NCBI GenBank assembly: GCA_946498375.1
Contig: CAMMOI010000006.1
Coordinates: 1-43,890, forward strand
Direction: 5' to 3'
DNA from: an uncultured Mycoplasmatota bacterium
GTDB taxonomy: Bacteria; Bacillota_I; Bacilli_A; RF39; UBA660
DNA length: 43,890 nt
The position numbers were made by a program, and so were the translations under genes. Shown one piece after another: positions 6,465-12,746 of the stretch. The first letter of the stretch is position 1. Every line of letters begins with the position of its first letter. The notes under the pieces are model-generated. The model was not told where the DNA came from, did not search any database, and saw nothing but the letters and a program-made list of their open reading frames with translations.

Positions 6465-7259
6465 TTATCTTGTTAAAACGTATGATTTTTCAGCAATACT
6501 ATTAGTAGCATTTTTTACATCCATTCTTCCCTCAGGACGTTTCATATATATTTTATTTTCTATAATATATTCAAAATCCGTTGCATATATATTTGTGTAA
6601 TTACTAGCATCTACTAAATAATTTATACCATTTTTGGAAATTTCACAAACGTAGCCATCTTGATCTGGGCCACCATTAATTTGATTTAAATATTCAACAT
6701 AATATGCTTTCTTTATATTATCATATTCAGCTAAATATACTTTGGTGTAATCACTAGCATCTACTAAATATTTTTGACCGTTTTTGGAAATTTCACAAAC
6801 ATAGCCATCTTGATCTGGTCCACCATTAATTTGATTTAAATATTCAGCATAATCTGCTTCACCTATATTATCATATTCAGCTAAATATACTTTGGTGTAA
6901 TCACTAGCATCTACTAAATATTTTTGGCCATTTTTGGAAATTTCACAAACATAGCCATCTTGATCTGGTCCATCATTAATTTGATTTAAATATTCAGCAT
7001 AAAAATTATTTGAAACTTCATCTATATTTAAAACTGTATTATTATAAAACATATTATTTGCTACATTTTGATCAAGCGTAAAAGTATCTTCTTTTCTTGG
7101 CCAAACATCTTGAGTATTTTCTGTTTCTTCTACAATATTATTCTTATTTTCTTCATTTGATGAATAACAGCTACTTAAACTTAAAGCTAAAGATAAGCTA
7201 GTTAGCATTGCAAGTAATTTTGAGTTATTTGTACTTTTTATTTTCGTTACTTTTTTCAT
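6465..7259 (-). CDS. Lipoprotein with three 50-residue tandem repeats
   Basis: 264 residues. It has a lysine-rich start, a hydrophobic stretch and a lipobox-like LSSC with Cys31, so probably a surface lipoprotein. Residues 87-236 are three copies of a 50-residue unit beginning Y-[AV]-EYLNQIN and containing GPDQDGYVCEISKNG and YLVDAS. Each unit has a single Cys. The first two copies are almost identical in DNA as well. SD GAGGGGG stands 8 nt before the ATG. I do not recognise the repeat, and no enzymatic motif is visible. A binding or spacer role is possible but not shown. Confidence 0.8.
   Translation of the reverse strand: MKKVTKIKSTNNSKLLAMLTSLSLALSLSSCYSSNEENKNNIVEETENTQDVWPRKEDTFTLDQNVANNMFYNNTVLNIDEVSNNFYAEYLNQINDGPDQDGYVCEISKNGQKYLVDASDYTKVYLAEYDNIGEADYAEYLNQINGGPDQDGYVCEISKNGQKYLVDASDYTKVYLAEYDNIKKAYYVEYLNQINGGPDQDGYVCEISKNGINYLVDASNYTNIYATDFEYIIENKIYMKRPEGRMDVKNATNSIAEKSYVLTR
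6552..7001 (-). repeat. Three direct 150-bp repeats inside the lipoprotein gene
   Basis: Units begin near 7001, 6851 and 6701, read on the minus strand. The period is 150 bp (50 codons), so gain or loss of a unit keeps the frame. Units 1 and 2 are nearly identical in nucleotides; unit 3 is more diverged. Confidence 0.85.
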
Positions 7260-7379: not shown

Positions 7380-8579
7380 TTAGCCTAGGCAAAAATATTT
7401 TCTTTTTTTATAAATTAAATAATATGCCATTATAATTTGAATAATAGTTATTAAAGCAGCAAGTAAAAAAATATATCTAAATCCATAAACATACATAACT
7501 CCTACTAAAAATACTCCTGTTGCTTCTCCTAATAAATTAAAAATATAATTAATTACAGTAGAATCTAAAATATATTTTTCTTTAACAGTATTGGTCATAA
7601 AACCAGAAATAAGATTACTATAAGCAATATTGGTAATCAAGCTATAAGCTATAGCTATTAATAGTATTAATTTGTTATTAGTTATGAAAACTAAAAGATA
7701 TAATATAATTCTTATTAAAAATTTAATAGATATATTAAAATAGTCATTTTTACTTTTTAATTTATTTATAGCAAGAGCCCCAAATATAATATCAATAATA
7801 GAAAACATTAATACAAAATAAGTCGCTGTTGAAGTAGTATAATCATTGTAATTTGTCAACATAATCATCTTTAAGCCAACTGCAATATTAAATGACATAT
7901 TGGTAATTCCATTATAAAATAAATAAAAAACTAATAATTTATGGTTTTTTAAATATTTAAAAACTTTTTTGTTATTATCTTTATACTTAACCTTTTGTTT
8001 ATCCGTAGTTAATGTTAAAACAAATAAAGCTAAGAAGTCAAAAAATATTGTAACCAATAAACAGGTTTTATACCCAATTACTATTTTATATAAAATACGG
8101 CCAAATATTAATGATCCTATTAATATTCCTAAAGTTTTACCCAAATTTTCTACTACACTTTTCTTCCCATATAATTCTTCACTTTTTTCAAAAGACATGA
8201 CATATGGATAGACACTAGATAATATTATATTTTCACAGGCGATATCAAAAAATGATAAGAATTTAATTAAAAATAGATTGTTAGTACCATCAATTAATAA
8301 TAAAAGAACAGAAATAAATATTTTAGTTATTAACGTACTCAAGATTCCTATTTTTATTTTAGCAACAGAAAATTTTTTAGTATAAAATAGTAAACAAAAA
8401 GCAGCTACTAAGGAAGCTATTGATATTACTTTAGAAATAGAAGTAGCACTAAGATTATTACTTGCTAACCAAAGTTGGCGAAAATTTCCCCATAGGCCAA
8501 CTGATATACAAAAAAAGGCAAGCATTAAAAGAATTAGATGTTGATTATTTAAATACTTTTTATTCAATATTTTTATCAT
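7380..8579 (-). CDS. MFS-like multi-pass membrane transporter
   Basis: About 399 residues with roughly 12 hydrophobic segments and a basic central loop (TTDKQKVKYKDNNKKVFKYL) between two six-helix halves, as in major facilitator proteins. The substrate cannot be read from the sequence. The frame opens at 8621, which would overlap the upstream gene by 62 nt. The ATG at 8579, with GTGG 5 nt upstream and a 20-nt overlap, looks more natural. It is the last gene of the GNAT / 393-residue protein / transporter operon, and translation is probably coupled to the gene before it. Confidence 0.7.
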   Translation of the reverse strand: MIKILNKKYLNNQHLILLMLAFFCISVGLWGNFRQLWLASNNLSATSISKVISIASLVAAFCLLFYTKKFSVAKIKIGILSTLITKIFISVLLLLIDGTNNLFLIKFLSFFDIACENIILSSVYPYVMSFEKSEELYGKKSVVENLGKTLGILIGSLIFGRILYKIVIGYKTCLLVTIFFDFLALFVLTLTTDKQKVKYKDNNKKVFKYLKNHKLLVFYLFYNGITNMSFNIAVGLKMIMLTNYNDYTTSTATYFVLMFSIIDIIFGALAINKLKSKNDYFNISIKFLIRIILYLLVFITNNKLILLIAIAYSLITNIAYSNLISGFMTNTVKEKYILDSTVINYIFNLLGEATGVFLVGVMYVYGFRYIFLLAALITIIQIIMAYYLIYKKRKYFCLG

Positions 8580-9741
8580 ATTCCACATCACTAACTTCAT
8601 ACTTGCGTTTTTTAGAAACATATCTTAACAGTTTAGTAGCACCCCACCCTAGTAGTGCAAGGGCAAAAAAGTAAAGTACGCCAAAAACTGTAAATGTAGG
8701 AGCAGAATCAGTAAGTAAACCAATTATTGATGCTCCAGCTGGCATAGATGTTACAATTGTTAAATTATCTACTGAACTAGATGTAACATCTTCTTTAAAA
8801 CCTTTGAATAATGTTTGGGCTGATGAAAGATATGTCTGAGTCATATCCCAAAGATATTTAATATAATCTAAAGTGTCTCTTAAAGTTTCATAGCGATATC
8901 CTGAAATAGCTAAAAACTCAGCAAGTTCCGGATCATTTTTGGCTATTTTTTCGCGTGTTGAGATATAAGTTCCCATTTGATTTATTCTTCCATCTATTAA
9001 ATTTACTGTTTTGGCATATCTTTCAAGTTTTGTTGTAAATTTAACTATATCAGAACCCTTTACATTAGCTTGTTCTTTAACAGCATCAATTTTCTCCCAA
9101 ATAATTCTATGAATATTTAAATATCGGTGTAATTGTCCTTTAAACTCACGAATAAAAATTTGCTCTTCTAAATATTTTTCAATGTTTTCAATAGACTGTT
9201 TCTTATTATTAATAAAATAATACTTATCTCCTCTAACAACATCATATTTAGCATTATTAAATTCAAAATACTTTTGTTTTTCTGTTCTAGATAAAAGATC
9301 AGCAATATTTTCTTTAGTTGCATTATCTAAAACAATAAAATAAGGATATACAGTCTCAATATTAGCAAGTTCCTTAGGAACTGGTGCTCCTAAACTAAAT
9401 AAATAGTTTATAGCTGGAGAAAGTTTATTTTCATAATAATCTGTTACTTTATCTATATCGGCAAATAAAGTATCTTCACTAACCTGCATGTTATTTAAAA
9501 CTATTAAACCATCTTCAAAAATTTTTACCTTAATATTCTGAGCGGTTGTAAAAGCAATATATTCTTCTCCAGAAACTTCATAATCAATTTTCCCGATTTC
9601 TAAAGCCTTACGATATTCTAATAATTTATCATTATCTAATTTAAGTTGCGATTTTACATCTCTTAAAAAATCATAAATTTCTGTTAATTGAAGCATAGTT
9701 CTTTGAAACCAGCCCCCAACATATACATTACTTATTTTCAT
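8560..9741 (-). CDS. Unknown protein with one C-terminal membrane anchor
   Basis: 393 residues, not assigned to a family. It begins MKISNVYVGGWFQRTMLQLT with no signal peptide. The mostly helical body has charged amphipathic stretches that could form coiled coils. One strongly hydrophobic segment lies at about 350-373 (TVFGVLYFFALALLGWGATK), followed by a short basic and acidic tail. This suggests a tail-anchored protein with a large cytoplasmic domain, although an outside orientation cannot be excluded. SD GAGGAG stands 5 nt before the ATG. It starts 12 nt after the GNAT gene and overlaps the transporter gene, so all three share one transcript and the G-tract promoter at 10221-10247. Confidence 0.75.
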   Translation of the reverse strand: MKISNVYVGGWFQRTMLQLTEIYDFLRDVKSQLKLDNDKLLEYRKALEIGKIDYEVSGEEYIAFTTAQNIKVKIFEDGLIVLNNMQVSEDTLFADIDKVTDYYENKLSPAINYLFSLGAPVPKELANIETVYPYFIVLDNATKENIADLLSRTEKQKYFEFNNAKYDVVRGDKYYFINNKKQSIENIEKYLEEQIFIREFKGQLHRYLNIHRIIWEKIDAVKEQANVKGSDIVKFTTKLERYAKTVNLIDGRINQMGTYISTREKIAKNDPELAEFLAISGYRYETLRDTLDYIKYLWDMTQTYLSSAQTLFKGFKEDVTSSSVDNLTIVTSMPAGASIIGLLTDSAPTFTVFGVLYFFALALLGWGATKLLRYVSKKRKYEVSDVEYDKNIE

Positions 9742-9753
9742 ATTACTCCTCTT

Positions 9754-10191
9754 TTAAATAGTCTTGAAAAAAAATCCAGCGTTTTTTTTAATAAAACCAT
9801 AATGTTGATAACAAGCATGAGCTGCTTTTCTAAAGTTCATAGACCATAACTCTATTGTCTTACAATTATTCTTTTTACATATTTTAGTAACTTCATCTAA
9901 CATTTTTGTAGCGATATTGTGGCGTCTAAATTGTGGGTGAACACAAACATGATTTAAAATAGCATATGTATTCATATCTTCATACATCGTTTTAATTATC
10001 GTTATTTTAGCATGAGCCACAACTTGATCTTGCATTTGTCCGATTAAATATATATCATTTGGATTATCCTTAGTTTCTTCAAATATTTTTTTTGCATATT
10101 CAAGCGATGTTTTCTCCTCAAATACAAAATTGCATAAATTAACTATGCTTTCTACATCTGAAGATGTTGCAATTTTAAATTTTACTTCCAT
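9754..10191 (-). CDS. GNAT-family N-acetyltransferase
   Basis: 145 residues, the usual size for a single GNAT domain. The acetyl-CoA-binding region reads HVCVHPQFRRHNIATKML, an Arg-Arg-His-Asn-Ile-Ala version of the Q/RxxGxG/A loop. It is followed by CKTIELWSMNFRKAAHACYQHYGF, typical of motif B and the final strand. The acceptor substrate is not predictable. SD AAGGAG precedes the ATG. It is the first gene of a three-gene operon whose promoter spacer contains a G8 homopolymer. Confidence 0.88.
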   Translation of the reverse strand: MEVKFKIATSSDVESIVNLCNFVFEEKTSLEYAKKIFEETKDNPNDIYLIGQMQDQVVAHAKITIIKTMYEDMNTYAILNHVCVHPQFRRHNIATKMLDEVTKICKKNNCKTIELWSMNFRKAAHACYQHYGFIKKNAGFFFKTI

Positions 10192-10220
10192 AAATCTACT
10201 CCTTACTTTACGTTGTCTTT

Positions 10221-10247
10221 AGTATACCCCCCCCGATTTTTTGTCAA
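10221..10247 (-). promoter_or_regulatory. Promoter with G8 tract in the spacer, possibly phase-variable
   Basis: On the minus strand a perfect -35 TTGACA (10242-10247) and -10 TATACT (10221-10226) are separated by only 15 bp. That spacer contains eight consecutive G (10227-10234). Such a run is very rare in this AT-rich DNA. Slippage changing G8 to G10 would restore the optimal 17-bp spacing, so expression of the GNAT operon may switch or be tuned by tract length. Confidence 0.6.
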
Positions 10248-10273
10248 ATAAAAAACTTGTGCTTTACACAAGT
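10246..10273 (-). terminator. Terminator of valS
   Basis: ACTTGTG/CACAAGT stem (10255-10273) with a 5-nt loop and a TTTTTATTT tail on the minus strand, 22 nt after the valS stop. Its T-tail abuts the -35 box of the GNAT operon promoter. Confidence 0.8.
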
Positions 10274-10295
10274 TTGCGTTTTCCTAAATTGTATT

Positions 10296-12707
10296 CTATT
10301 CGATATCTAATTGAATATTATCAATTTTATATCCTTTATTATATTCATTTAAGTTAAGATTTTCTATAAATAATGTAGCTTTAAAATCTTTGTTTGAAGC
10401 TTCTAATGCTTTTTTTAATTCTTTATCTACACTAATTTCCATTAATTTTATTGGTGTTTTTAAAGATAAATTATTATTCGATTTTTCACCTCTAGCTTGA
10501 CTAATGATTTCTACAATTAAATCTCCATTTTTTACTTCCTCAGCAAAATTAAATTCTAAAGGTTTAATTTCTGTTATGTGAATAGATTTTTCTTGATGGT
10601 ATAATTCTTGGTAAATTTCTTCTGTAATATATGGGAAAAATATACTAAAATCTTGTAATAATTTATAAAGTAAAGTATAGACTGTTTTTTGAGATGAATA
10701 TCGTGCTTCTTGACCAAACTCTTCAGGACGATATAATCGATGTTTTACAATTTCAATGTAATTATCACAAAAATTCCAAAAGAATTTTTCTAAAGTATTA
10801 AGTGCCAATCCAACTTCATAATCATCCATATATTTAATAAATCTTTTTTCCATCTCTTGGTATTTTCCTAAAATCCATTTATCAATATATTCATAGTTAT
10901 CTAATTTTCTATCTTCATAATCCTGAAGGTGCATTTCAATAAATTTAGATACATTCCATATTTTATTAATTAGTTTACGACCTCTTTGTAATGTTTCTTC
11001 GCTATAAATTATATCAGTTCCCAAGCGTCCTGATCCTGCCCAATATCGCATTACATCAGCTGAAAATTGATTTATAAGAGTAAGTGGATCAATTTTGCTA
11101 TTTCCTTTACTTTTGCTTATTTTTTCTCCTTTACTAGCCATTACAAATCCAGATATCATGACATTATCCCATGGTCTTTGACCAAAATGATAAAAACTTT
11201 TAACAATTGTATAAAAATCCCATGTTCTAATGATTTCTGATGCATTTGTTCTTAAACTCATTGGTTTTAAAATATCTTCGTAATTATCTTTTTCTTTATA
11301 ACGCATATTAATAAGTGGCGTTACTGATGATGTTGCCCAAGTATCCATAACATCTGCCTCAGCTATAAATTCTTTACAGCCACATTTAGGGCATTTATCT
11401 ATATTTGGTAAATCTACTAATGGATTTACTGGTAAATCTTCTTCTTTAGCAAAAATAGCTTCTTTACAATCTTTACAATACCATACTGGAAATGGTACTC
11501 CAAAATATCTTTGTCTAGATATACACCAATCCCACATTATATTTTCAACCCATTCATTATACCTATTTTGCATATGAGCAGGATGCCATTTTATTTCATT
11601 ACCAATTTTTAAAAAGTCTTCTTTATGACTCATGATATCAATAAACCATTGATTCATTACAGCATATTCTACTTCTTTTCCACATCTTTCATGAGTCTGT
11701 ACTTCATGTTCTAATTCTTCAACTTTTTCTACGAATCCACCATTTTGTAAATCTTCTACTATTCTTTTTCTAGCCTCTTTTATTTTTAGTCCTCCATAAT
11801 TTGGAACACTATCTATTATTTTACCATCTTCAGTAAAGATATATTTAAGGGGCAAATTATATTTTTTCCACCATTCGATATCAGTTTGATCTCCGAATGT
11901 ACAGCACATTACTACTCCAGTTCCTTTATCTAAAGCAACTTTTTCATCTGCCATAATAGGAACATCTACATCTATAATAGGAATATGAGCATTCTTTCCT
12001 ATCAAAGACTTATGCTTTTCATCATTAGGATTTACAAATACACATACAATAGCTGGTAATAATTCAGGTCTAGTTGTAGCAATAATAAATTCTTCATTAT
12101 CTTCGACTGTTTTAAATTTGATATAATTAAATGTTGTTTTGATACTTTTAGTTTCTAATTCTGCCTGGGCAATAGAAGTTAAACATTCATTACACCACAA
12201 AGCAGGAGATTCTTTATGATAACAATGACCTTTATCAACTAAATCCAAAAAAGATGCTTGACTAATTTTAATTGTTGAAGGACTAACAGTTTTATAATGA
12301 ATAGACCAATCTGTACTTACACCCATTTTACTAAATAATTCTTGAAATTCAGCTTCATATTTATCTGTAGTCTGATAACATAATTTAGAAAATTCTTCTC
12401 GTCCAATTTCATGAGCTTTTTTACCTTGTTCTTTTTCTACTAATCTTTCGCTAGGAAGACCATTGTCATCAAATCCAAATGGGTAAAAAACATTAAACCC
12501 TCTTAATCGTTTATATCTTGCAATCATTTCTGTTTGAGAATATGAAAAAATATGACCAATATGAATCTTACCACTTACTGTTGGTGGTGGGGTATCAATA
12601 GAATATACCGCTTTGTTATTTGGAACAAATTTGTATATATTATTTTCTTTCCAATAATCTCTCCACTTTGCTTCTTTTTCTTGATAGTTATATTTCTTAT
12701 CTAACAT
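10296..12707 (-). CDS. valS: Valyl-tRNA synthetase (short form)
   Basis: About 803 residues. A class Ia synthetase charging tRNA-Val. It shows TPPPTVSGKIHIGH (HIGH signature near residue 50) and KISKS in GEKISKSKGN near residue 520. The editing domain lies between them (TTRPELLPAIVCVFVNP) and cysteine pairs suggest zinc sites (CNEC, CKDC, CPKCGC). It ends soon after the anticodon-binding domain and lacks the roughly 60-residue C-terminal coiled-coil arm of longer bacterial ValRS. The frame opens with a GTG at 12716 that forms part of the SD AAAGGTG; the ATG at 12707 is properly spaced. It has its own promoter; no T-box was found upstream. Confidence 0.95.
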   Translation of the reverse strand: MLDKKYNYQEKEAKWRDYWKENNIYKFVPNNKAVYSIDTPPPTVSGKIHIGHIFSYSQTEMIARYKRLRGFNVFYPFGFDDNGLPSERLVEKEQGKKAHEIGREEFSKLCYQTTDKYEAEFQELFSKMGVSTDWSIHYKTVSPSTIKISQASFLDLVDKGHCYHKESPALWCNECLTSIAQAELETKSIKTTFNYIKFKTVEDNEEFIIATTRPELLPAIVCVFVNPNDEKHKSLIGKNAHIPIIDVDVPIMADEKVALDKGTGVVMCCTFGDQTDIEWWKKYNLPLKYIFTEDGKIIDSVPNYGGLKIKEARKRIVEDLQNGGFVEKVEELEHEVQTHERCGKEVEYAVMNQWFIDIMSHKEDFLKIGNEIKWHPAHMQNRYNEWVENIMWDWCISRQRYFGVPFPVWYCKDCKEAIFAKEEDLPVNPLVDLPNIDKCPKCGCKEFIAEADVMDTWATSSVTPLINMRYKEKDNYEDILKPMSLRTNASEIIRTWDFYTIVKSFYHFGQRPWDNVMISGFVMASKGEKISKSKGNSKIDPLTLINQFSADVMRYWAGSGRLGTDIIYSEETLQRGRKLINKIWNVSKFIEMHLQDYEDRKLDNYEYIDKWILGKYQEMEKRFIKYMDDYEVGLALNTLEKFFWNFCDNYIEIVKHRLYRPEEFGQEARYSSQKTVYTLLYKLLQDFSIFFPYITEEIYQELYHQEKSIHITEIKPLEFNFAEEVKNGDLIVEIISQARGEKSNNNLSLKTPIKLMEISVDKELKKALEASNKDFKATLFIENLNLNEYNKGYKIDNIQLDIE

Positions 12708-12746
12708 TAATATCACCTTTTTTCAAAATATGTTTTTTCTTTAGTT

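Follow-up and report, generated by a model that had tools for sequence, protein, structure and literature searches.

The promoter in front of a GNAT acetyltransferase operon in the window (i.e., the whole 43,890-nt stretch of DNA analyzed here) carries eight consecutive G between its -35 and -10 hexamers, which raises the question of whether the length of this tract randomly switches the genes behind it, and whether such a switch arose for this operon. The initial annotation had described TTGACA and TATACT on the minus strand with a 15-bp spacer containing G8, in DNA otherwise lacking G-runs of such length. Both points were confirmed by direct reading: the minus strand reads AAACTTGTGTAAAGCACAAGTTTTTTATTTGACAAAAAATCGGGGGGGGTATACTAAAGACAACGTAAAGTAAGGAGTAGATTTATG at the promoter (coordinates in Table 1), and besides the tract (C8 on the plus strand) there is no other G or C run of at least 6 in the window. 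The hexamers alone are unremarkable in AT-rich DNA, with 31 promoter-like sites versus 30.5 expected in a scan that missed this site because only 16-18-bp spacers were tested. A leader of 29 bp lies between the -10 hexamer and the GNAT start. Since the upstream valS-like gene is followed by a terminator-like hairpin, the promoter and its operon are probably insulated from it. For the 393-aa protein encoded by the second gene, nothing scored above the cut-off in Pfam and NCBIfam gave no match. Just downstream of the MFS gene, a 264-aa lipoprotein-like protein is encoded on the minus strand (window 6465-7259); its gene includes 2.8 tandem copies of a 150-bp unit (6587-7002, 93% matching), and variation in repeat number is possible.

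Table 1 Features of the poly-G promoter and the GNAT operon, in window coordinates.
Feature	Position	Strand	Evidence
-35 hexamer TTGACA	10242..10247	minus	sequence read directly
G8 tract, slippage-prone portion of the 15-bp spacer	10227..10234	minus	sole G/C run >=6 in window
Spacer AAAAATC + GGGGGGGG, 15 bp	10227..10241	minus	sequence read directly
-10 hexamer TATACT	10221..10226	minus	sequence read directly
Repeated promoter cassette of ~90 bp (hairpin, promoter, leader, RBS)	10186..10275	minus	87-88% identity to G000:C9:302-391 and G000:C3:37716-37806
Terminator-like hairpin 3' of valS, 10-bp stem, U-rich tail overlapping the -35 region	10253..10275	minus	
AGGAG, likely ribosome-binding site of the GNAT gene	10199..10203	minus	sequence read directly
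GNAT acetyltransferase, 145 aa, first gene behind the promoter	9754..10191	minus	ORF; PF00583 2.3e-14
393-aa protein with C-terminal membrane segments, second operon gene	8560..9741	minus	ORF
MFS transporter, third gene	7380..8621	minus	ORF; PF07690 9.2e-11
Valyl-tRNA synthetase-like gene (valS), upstream neighbor in the same direction	10296..12716	minus	ORF; name from sequence resemblance

The promoter belongs to a block that recurs from hairpin to start codon on two other contigs of the window's MAG (G000), C9 (88%) and C3 (87%). Both copies also have the hairpin, with stem bases changed, and the tract is G8 in the window and C9 copies and interrupted (GGGAGGGGG) in the C3 copy. The strict pattern TTGACA-N-GGGGTATACT gave three matches in the MAG and its reversed control gave none. 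The C9 and C3 cassettes both precede secreted proteins with an SYAYF-type signal/transmembrane start, the C3 protein matching Peptidase_M73 just above and DUF6273 just below the cut-off. Related members of these protein families on C4, C13 and C27 lack poly-G. A rule that poly-G precedes every surface paralogue fails at these three loci, and likewise at 7 of 34 loci in the sister species (G001) and 7 of 22 in the relative G006 when loci are anchored on the protein. Poly-G tracts also occur at the position of the ribosome-binding site at G000:C4:10587-10642 and G000:C17:3098-3153 (AAAAAAGGGGGGGGAATATTATG; CAAGGGGGGGTGAAAAATG), as possible length-variable translation signals.

Across the taxonomic family, the pattern TTGAC-N-G7-N(0-6)-TATAMT was detected in 73 of 386 genomes and the reversed pattern in 0 of 386. 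Pattern scans gave 21 copies in G006, 21-27 in G007 and 15 in G084, and most G-runs of at least 7 in the genus lie between a -35 and a -10. Two pattern scans of viral contigs returned no match. Among 225 promoters from 49 genomes, sampled as one assembly per species from short-read MAGs with many promoter copies at contig ends, the tracts were mostly G7-G12. The -35/-10 distance stayed within 13-23 bp, mostly 15-20 (15 bp, n = 22; 16 bp, n = 23; 17 bp, n = 18; 18 bp, n = 41; 19 bp, n = 92; 20 bp, n = 17), and the G-run was offset from the -10 by 0-6 nt between species. The homopolymer sits between -35 and -10, as in promoters of the porA and tp0126 type, both at the window site and in these 49 genomes. 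As a class, slippage-variable promoters are well supported.

Hypervariability of the tract was tested at loci selected for the similarity of their proteins, not for a promoter pattern; with one assembly per species, the tract length in a MAG consensus represents the commonest state only. In G001, 22 promoters of one type carried G7 (n = 3), G8 (n = 8) or G9 (n = 11), and their 97-bp flanks were nearly free of indels and differed by 3.8% substitutions. Tract length differed in 63% of promoter pairs and, among the 73 pairs whose flanks had two differences or fewer, in 46; the tract-to-flank indel ratio was ~840 per bp. This pattern reads as the signature of slippage and is the best evidence for it. 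All 39 tracts with readable flanks in the protein-anchored set (24 from G001 and 15 from G006) were uninterrupted G, so purity is kept. That the tract varies faster than the surrounding DNA is true of the promoter family in G001 but not in G006, where 13 of 15 tracts were G9, the flanks were more diverged and the indel ratio was ~1.2, i.e., without a tract excess; tract length in G006 appears to be constrained. G9 was also found in 20 of 25 tracts in G007, and the narrow lengths in both genomes suggest that some species hold the tract near a preferred length instead of switching freely. Promoters selected by pattern ranged from G8 to G11 in G006 and from G6 to G10 in G007, and among such more divergent promoters the indel excess in the tract was only ~2-fold. 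Tracts of G11, G12, G13 and G16 were detected in a genome of another genus (G220). No longer tracts were seen in any other genome (maximum G16, spacer 23), and one of those in G220 precedes a short surface ORF whose end lies immediately ahead of a DNA-ligase-like gene.

The narrow lengths in G006 and G007 favor the main rival to a switch, namely that the G-run is a fixed promoter element (a regulator site, a DNA-shape element or an aid to a default-weak promoter) whose length is not used for switching. Consistent with it, total spacing often stays at 19 despite a differing split between G and non-G bases, and the run stays pure G even as the rest of the spacer drifts, as would equally be expected of a binding site. 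However, the fixed element is difficult to reconcile with G7-G9 variation between otherwise nearly identical promoters in G001 and with the long and differing tracts of G220, and the shift of the tract relative to the -10 between species is awkward for a fixed contact. We regard this explanation as unlikely on balance.

The reading that we prefer, and consider probable, is a sigma-A-type promoter in which a slippage-prone poly-G tract sets the -35/-10 distance and the genes behind it are switched randomly and reversibly. If slippage during replication adds or removes G, at whatever rate, the spacer would shift between poor and workable lengths, and transcription of the downstream genes would go up or down, at random and reversibly. 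By analogy with porA and tp0126, spacer length set by the G tract most likely tunes promoter strength. Of the phase-variable switch that the initial annotation proposed, the length-variable poly-G spacer element stood up. It is supported by the near-identical paralogous promoters of the sister species, by recurrence across the family and by the poly-G promoter that the GNAT operon also has in G007. The assignment of G8 as OFF and G10 as ON did not, since species modal spacers cluster at 15-16 or 18-19 rather than at 17 and these states therefore cannot be read from the sequence. For a standard promoter, neither a 15- nor a 19-bp spacer mode is favorable, which counts against the preferred reading.

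A DUF6273-like C-terminal domain (WWxxSP...A...PVINL) was found in 34 of 42 complete ORFs of at least 300 aa behind sampled poly-G promoters, a sample weighted to the genus. DUF6273 has been described as a C-type-lectin-like target domain of diversity-generating retroelements (DGRs) in phage tentaclins (PMC10743442). Other clients, judged by eye, were dockerin-like, pilin-like and LPxTG-like proteins. The AlphaFold model of the G000:C3 protein had a mean pLDDT of 52, with the variable region below 50, and was too poor for a search for the C-type lectin fold; a sequence search for a relative of the DUF6273-like domain with a solved structure found none. Poly-G also precedes 91-94-aa proteins that resemble secreted partners of the WXG100 type (MALGNSAI...; L133 on G002:C11 and L126 on G008:C16), and the regulon therefore seems wider than surface lectins. 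Type IV prepilin-like starts (GFTLVELLAVI / GFTLMELLAVI) follow poly-G promoters at L132 (G002:C6) and L318 (G220:C4). At L323-L325 (G303, G439 and G198), the secreted proteins behind poly-G promoters have a C-terminus of a different kind, rich in glycine and aromatic residues (W..RGG.Y..G...G.F.F...SR..L), and may form a further family of DGR-type targets.

Near-identical leaders and N-termini precede divergent C-termini in both G001 and G006. Together with the cassette shared by an unrelated operon and the many contigs that break at poly-G genes, this is what would be expected if the G-run were mainly a handle for recombination or gene conversion that moves promoter/N-terminal cassettes between loci, the GNAT operon having received its copy in this way, with little direct effect on transcription. 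Yet the homology spans the whole leader, so ordinary repeat recombination suffices, and a handle would not account for why the run sits so regularly between -35 and -10 with a spacing close to that of a promoter; we consider such a handle very improbable as the main role of the tract.

The last G of the run might instead belong to the -10 of an alternative sigma factor. The sigma-B-type consensus is GTTT-N13-15-GGGTAT, and the C9 copy, reading GTTTGA-N14-GGGTAT, has a formal resemblance to it. In other species the G-run is followed by GTTATAAT, GTATATTATACT, GTTGAGATATAAT or GTAAGTTATAAT, and TTGACA and TATAAT are conserved but GGGTAT is not. As the offset of the G-run from the -10 varies while the -35/-10 distance stays near the promoter range, spacer length rather than a fixed GGGTAT appears to be the constrained quantity. 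A sigma-B-like -10 is scarcely credible and is ruled out by this offset, the intervening bases varying in number and kind among species. A chance G-run in an ordinary promoter, for which the ordinariness of the hexamers might speak, is the least probable reading of all and is ruled out by the three MAG copies, the hundreds in the family, the zero reversed-pattern matches and the expectation, at 25% GC, of ~0.005 G8/C8 per window (~0.1 in the 0.97-Mb MAG).

DGR targets stand behind poly-G promoters in the genus. RVT_1 matches were found in 8 of 9 genus genomes, with PF00078 over the cut-off, and the RTs of G001, G003, G006 and G007 contain IGNLSSQ, in agreement with the [I/L]GxxxSQ motif of DGR RTs. 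Several genus genomes share a layout of target gene, template repeat, Avd-like 117-aa protein and RT; the accessory protein of G006 matched the Avd models NF033474 (2.8e-7, below the curated cut-off) and phrog_3206 (3.6e-10). Several poly-G genes match DGR template repeats with mismatches concentrated at template A, and remote targets on other contigs match the same template. Under an alignment scoring that favored A mismatches (control runs of the same alignments that tolerated C, G or T mismatches gave a lower score each time), the template and variable repeats of G003 mismatched at 21 of 38 A and 0 of 78 other bases, a remote gene in G007 (L110) at 21 of 41 template A and 1 of 61 other bases, and L146 in G005 at 16 of 32 and 1 of 49, respectively. 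The DGR target gene on G007:C5 itself has a poly-G promoter (TTGACT-A-G9-CAAGTAGACG-TATAAT, spacer 20), upstream of target, TR, avd and RT. At this locus (L316, G007:C5:25500-31500), a switch may act jointly on target, template, avd and RT.

In the window's own MAG (68% complete), RT, avd and template of a DGR were not found. The C3 gene is target-like, with mismatches at 15 of 38 A and 12 of 74 other positions when aligned to the G008 template. A short RT-like fragment (YRDD) at L292 (G000:C14:24899-25189) is unlike the DGR RTs of relatives and adjoins a possible recombinase-like gene. The DGR on G008:C45 (L313/L294) has an intact avd and an RT split into several ORFs, and is apparently decayed or mis-assembled.

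Against this background, the GNAT operon is an unusual, occasional client of poly-G promoters. The gene for the 393-aa protein follows GNAT in 12 of 13 orthologous loci, and a poly-G promoter is present in two of the 13, i.e., G000 and G007; at the other 11 loci, G-runs are of at most 3 bases, with no trace of a tract. The G007 operon promoter (TTTACA-AGCATA-G8-TAAGT-TATAAT) is built differently from that of the window, the two differing in -35, spacer and G-run position. A valS-like gene precedes each operon but the two genes are only 31% identical, so that, judging from the sequences, the site may be shared by descent or may have been acquired independently. A poly-G surface gene stands immediately in front of the operon in G001, and the G000 state could therefore also have come about if a surface gene that once separated GNAT from the promoter was lost. 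The simplest reading, because of the identity between the cassette and surface-gene promoter copies, would be that the GNAT operon captured the cassette from the surface-gene family. The view that the switch evolved for the GNAT operon is not supported, given that the usual clients are DGR-type surface proteins and that few orthologues have poly-G. Client functions were surface-type in the sampled loci of the promoter family, and the window operon encodes a GNAT, a membrane protein and an MFS transporter. These are no obvious surface antigens, which counts against a surface-switch reading of this operon.

Poly-G promoters in the genus mainly drive large paralogous sets of secreted proteins, many of them DGR targets; in combination with slippage, poly-G length would pick the members expressed, and the DGR would rewrite their binding surface. 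The copy of the ~90-bp cassette before the GNAT operon would put this operon under the same type of switch, whichever tract length is the ON state. We put forward the joint scheme tentatively, as one that could well be wrong in part: slippage picks surface-lectin members at random, DGRs rewrite their binding surfaces, the G007:C5 DGR mutator is perhaps phase-variable itself, and the GNAT/MFS operon joined via a captured cassette.

The best-known poly-G promoter switches are those of a handful of pathogens (porA, tp0126 and tpr). Here, poly-G promoters make up a genome-wide family in uncultured gut Bacilli, and the surface proteins to which they are coupled are diversified by a retroelement. 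A search of the open-access full-text literature found no paper joining poly-G promoter switches to DGR-diversified surface proteins. Whether commensals add random on/off switching to targeted hypermutation, and whether ordinary operons are recruited to such a regulon by copying of a promoter cassette, can now be tested in existing metagenomes. These gut bacteria appear to shuffle their surface proteins at two levels, the choice of those produced and their form, and the window copy instead controls an acetyltransferase/transporter operon.

Among known systems, Mycoplasma-type lipoprotein families such as vlp of M. hyorhinis have poly-A in the promoter, and their non-promoter variation is in repeat number. 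The poly-G family is like vlp in that the promoter regions of a multigene surface family contain a homopolymer, and unlike it in the base, the proteins and the use of a DGR instead of repeat-number variation. In N. meningitidis, surface expression of porA is high with 11G, ~2-fold less with 10G and ~13-fold less with 9G (PMC3639595). As in porA, a homopolymeric G tract fills the promoter spacer (PMC3639595), but porA is one gene in a Gram-negative pathogen, whereas a multi-locus promoter family in uncultured low-GC Bacilli serves many clients here, including a transporter operon. According to the parts of the T. pallidum study drawn on here (PMC7864442), tp0126 performs best at a tract length that gives a 17-nt spacer, and the tprL tract has 7-11 G with 9 predominant. 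The likeness to tp0126 and tprE/G/J/L is that several paralogous surface proteins each have a promoter poly-G; T. pallidum differs in having fewer loci and in a tprL tract that overlaps the -10 region, and those same parts do not mention coupling to a DGR (PMC7864442). As in DGRs with C-type-lectin/DUF6273 targets, the relatives of the window's genome have an RT, an Avd-like protein, a template and a DUF6273-like variable region; unlike in the known DUF6273 DGRs, targets here stand behind poly-G promoters and include remote ones on other contigs.
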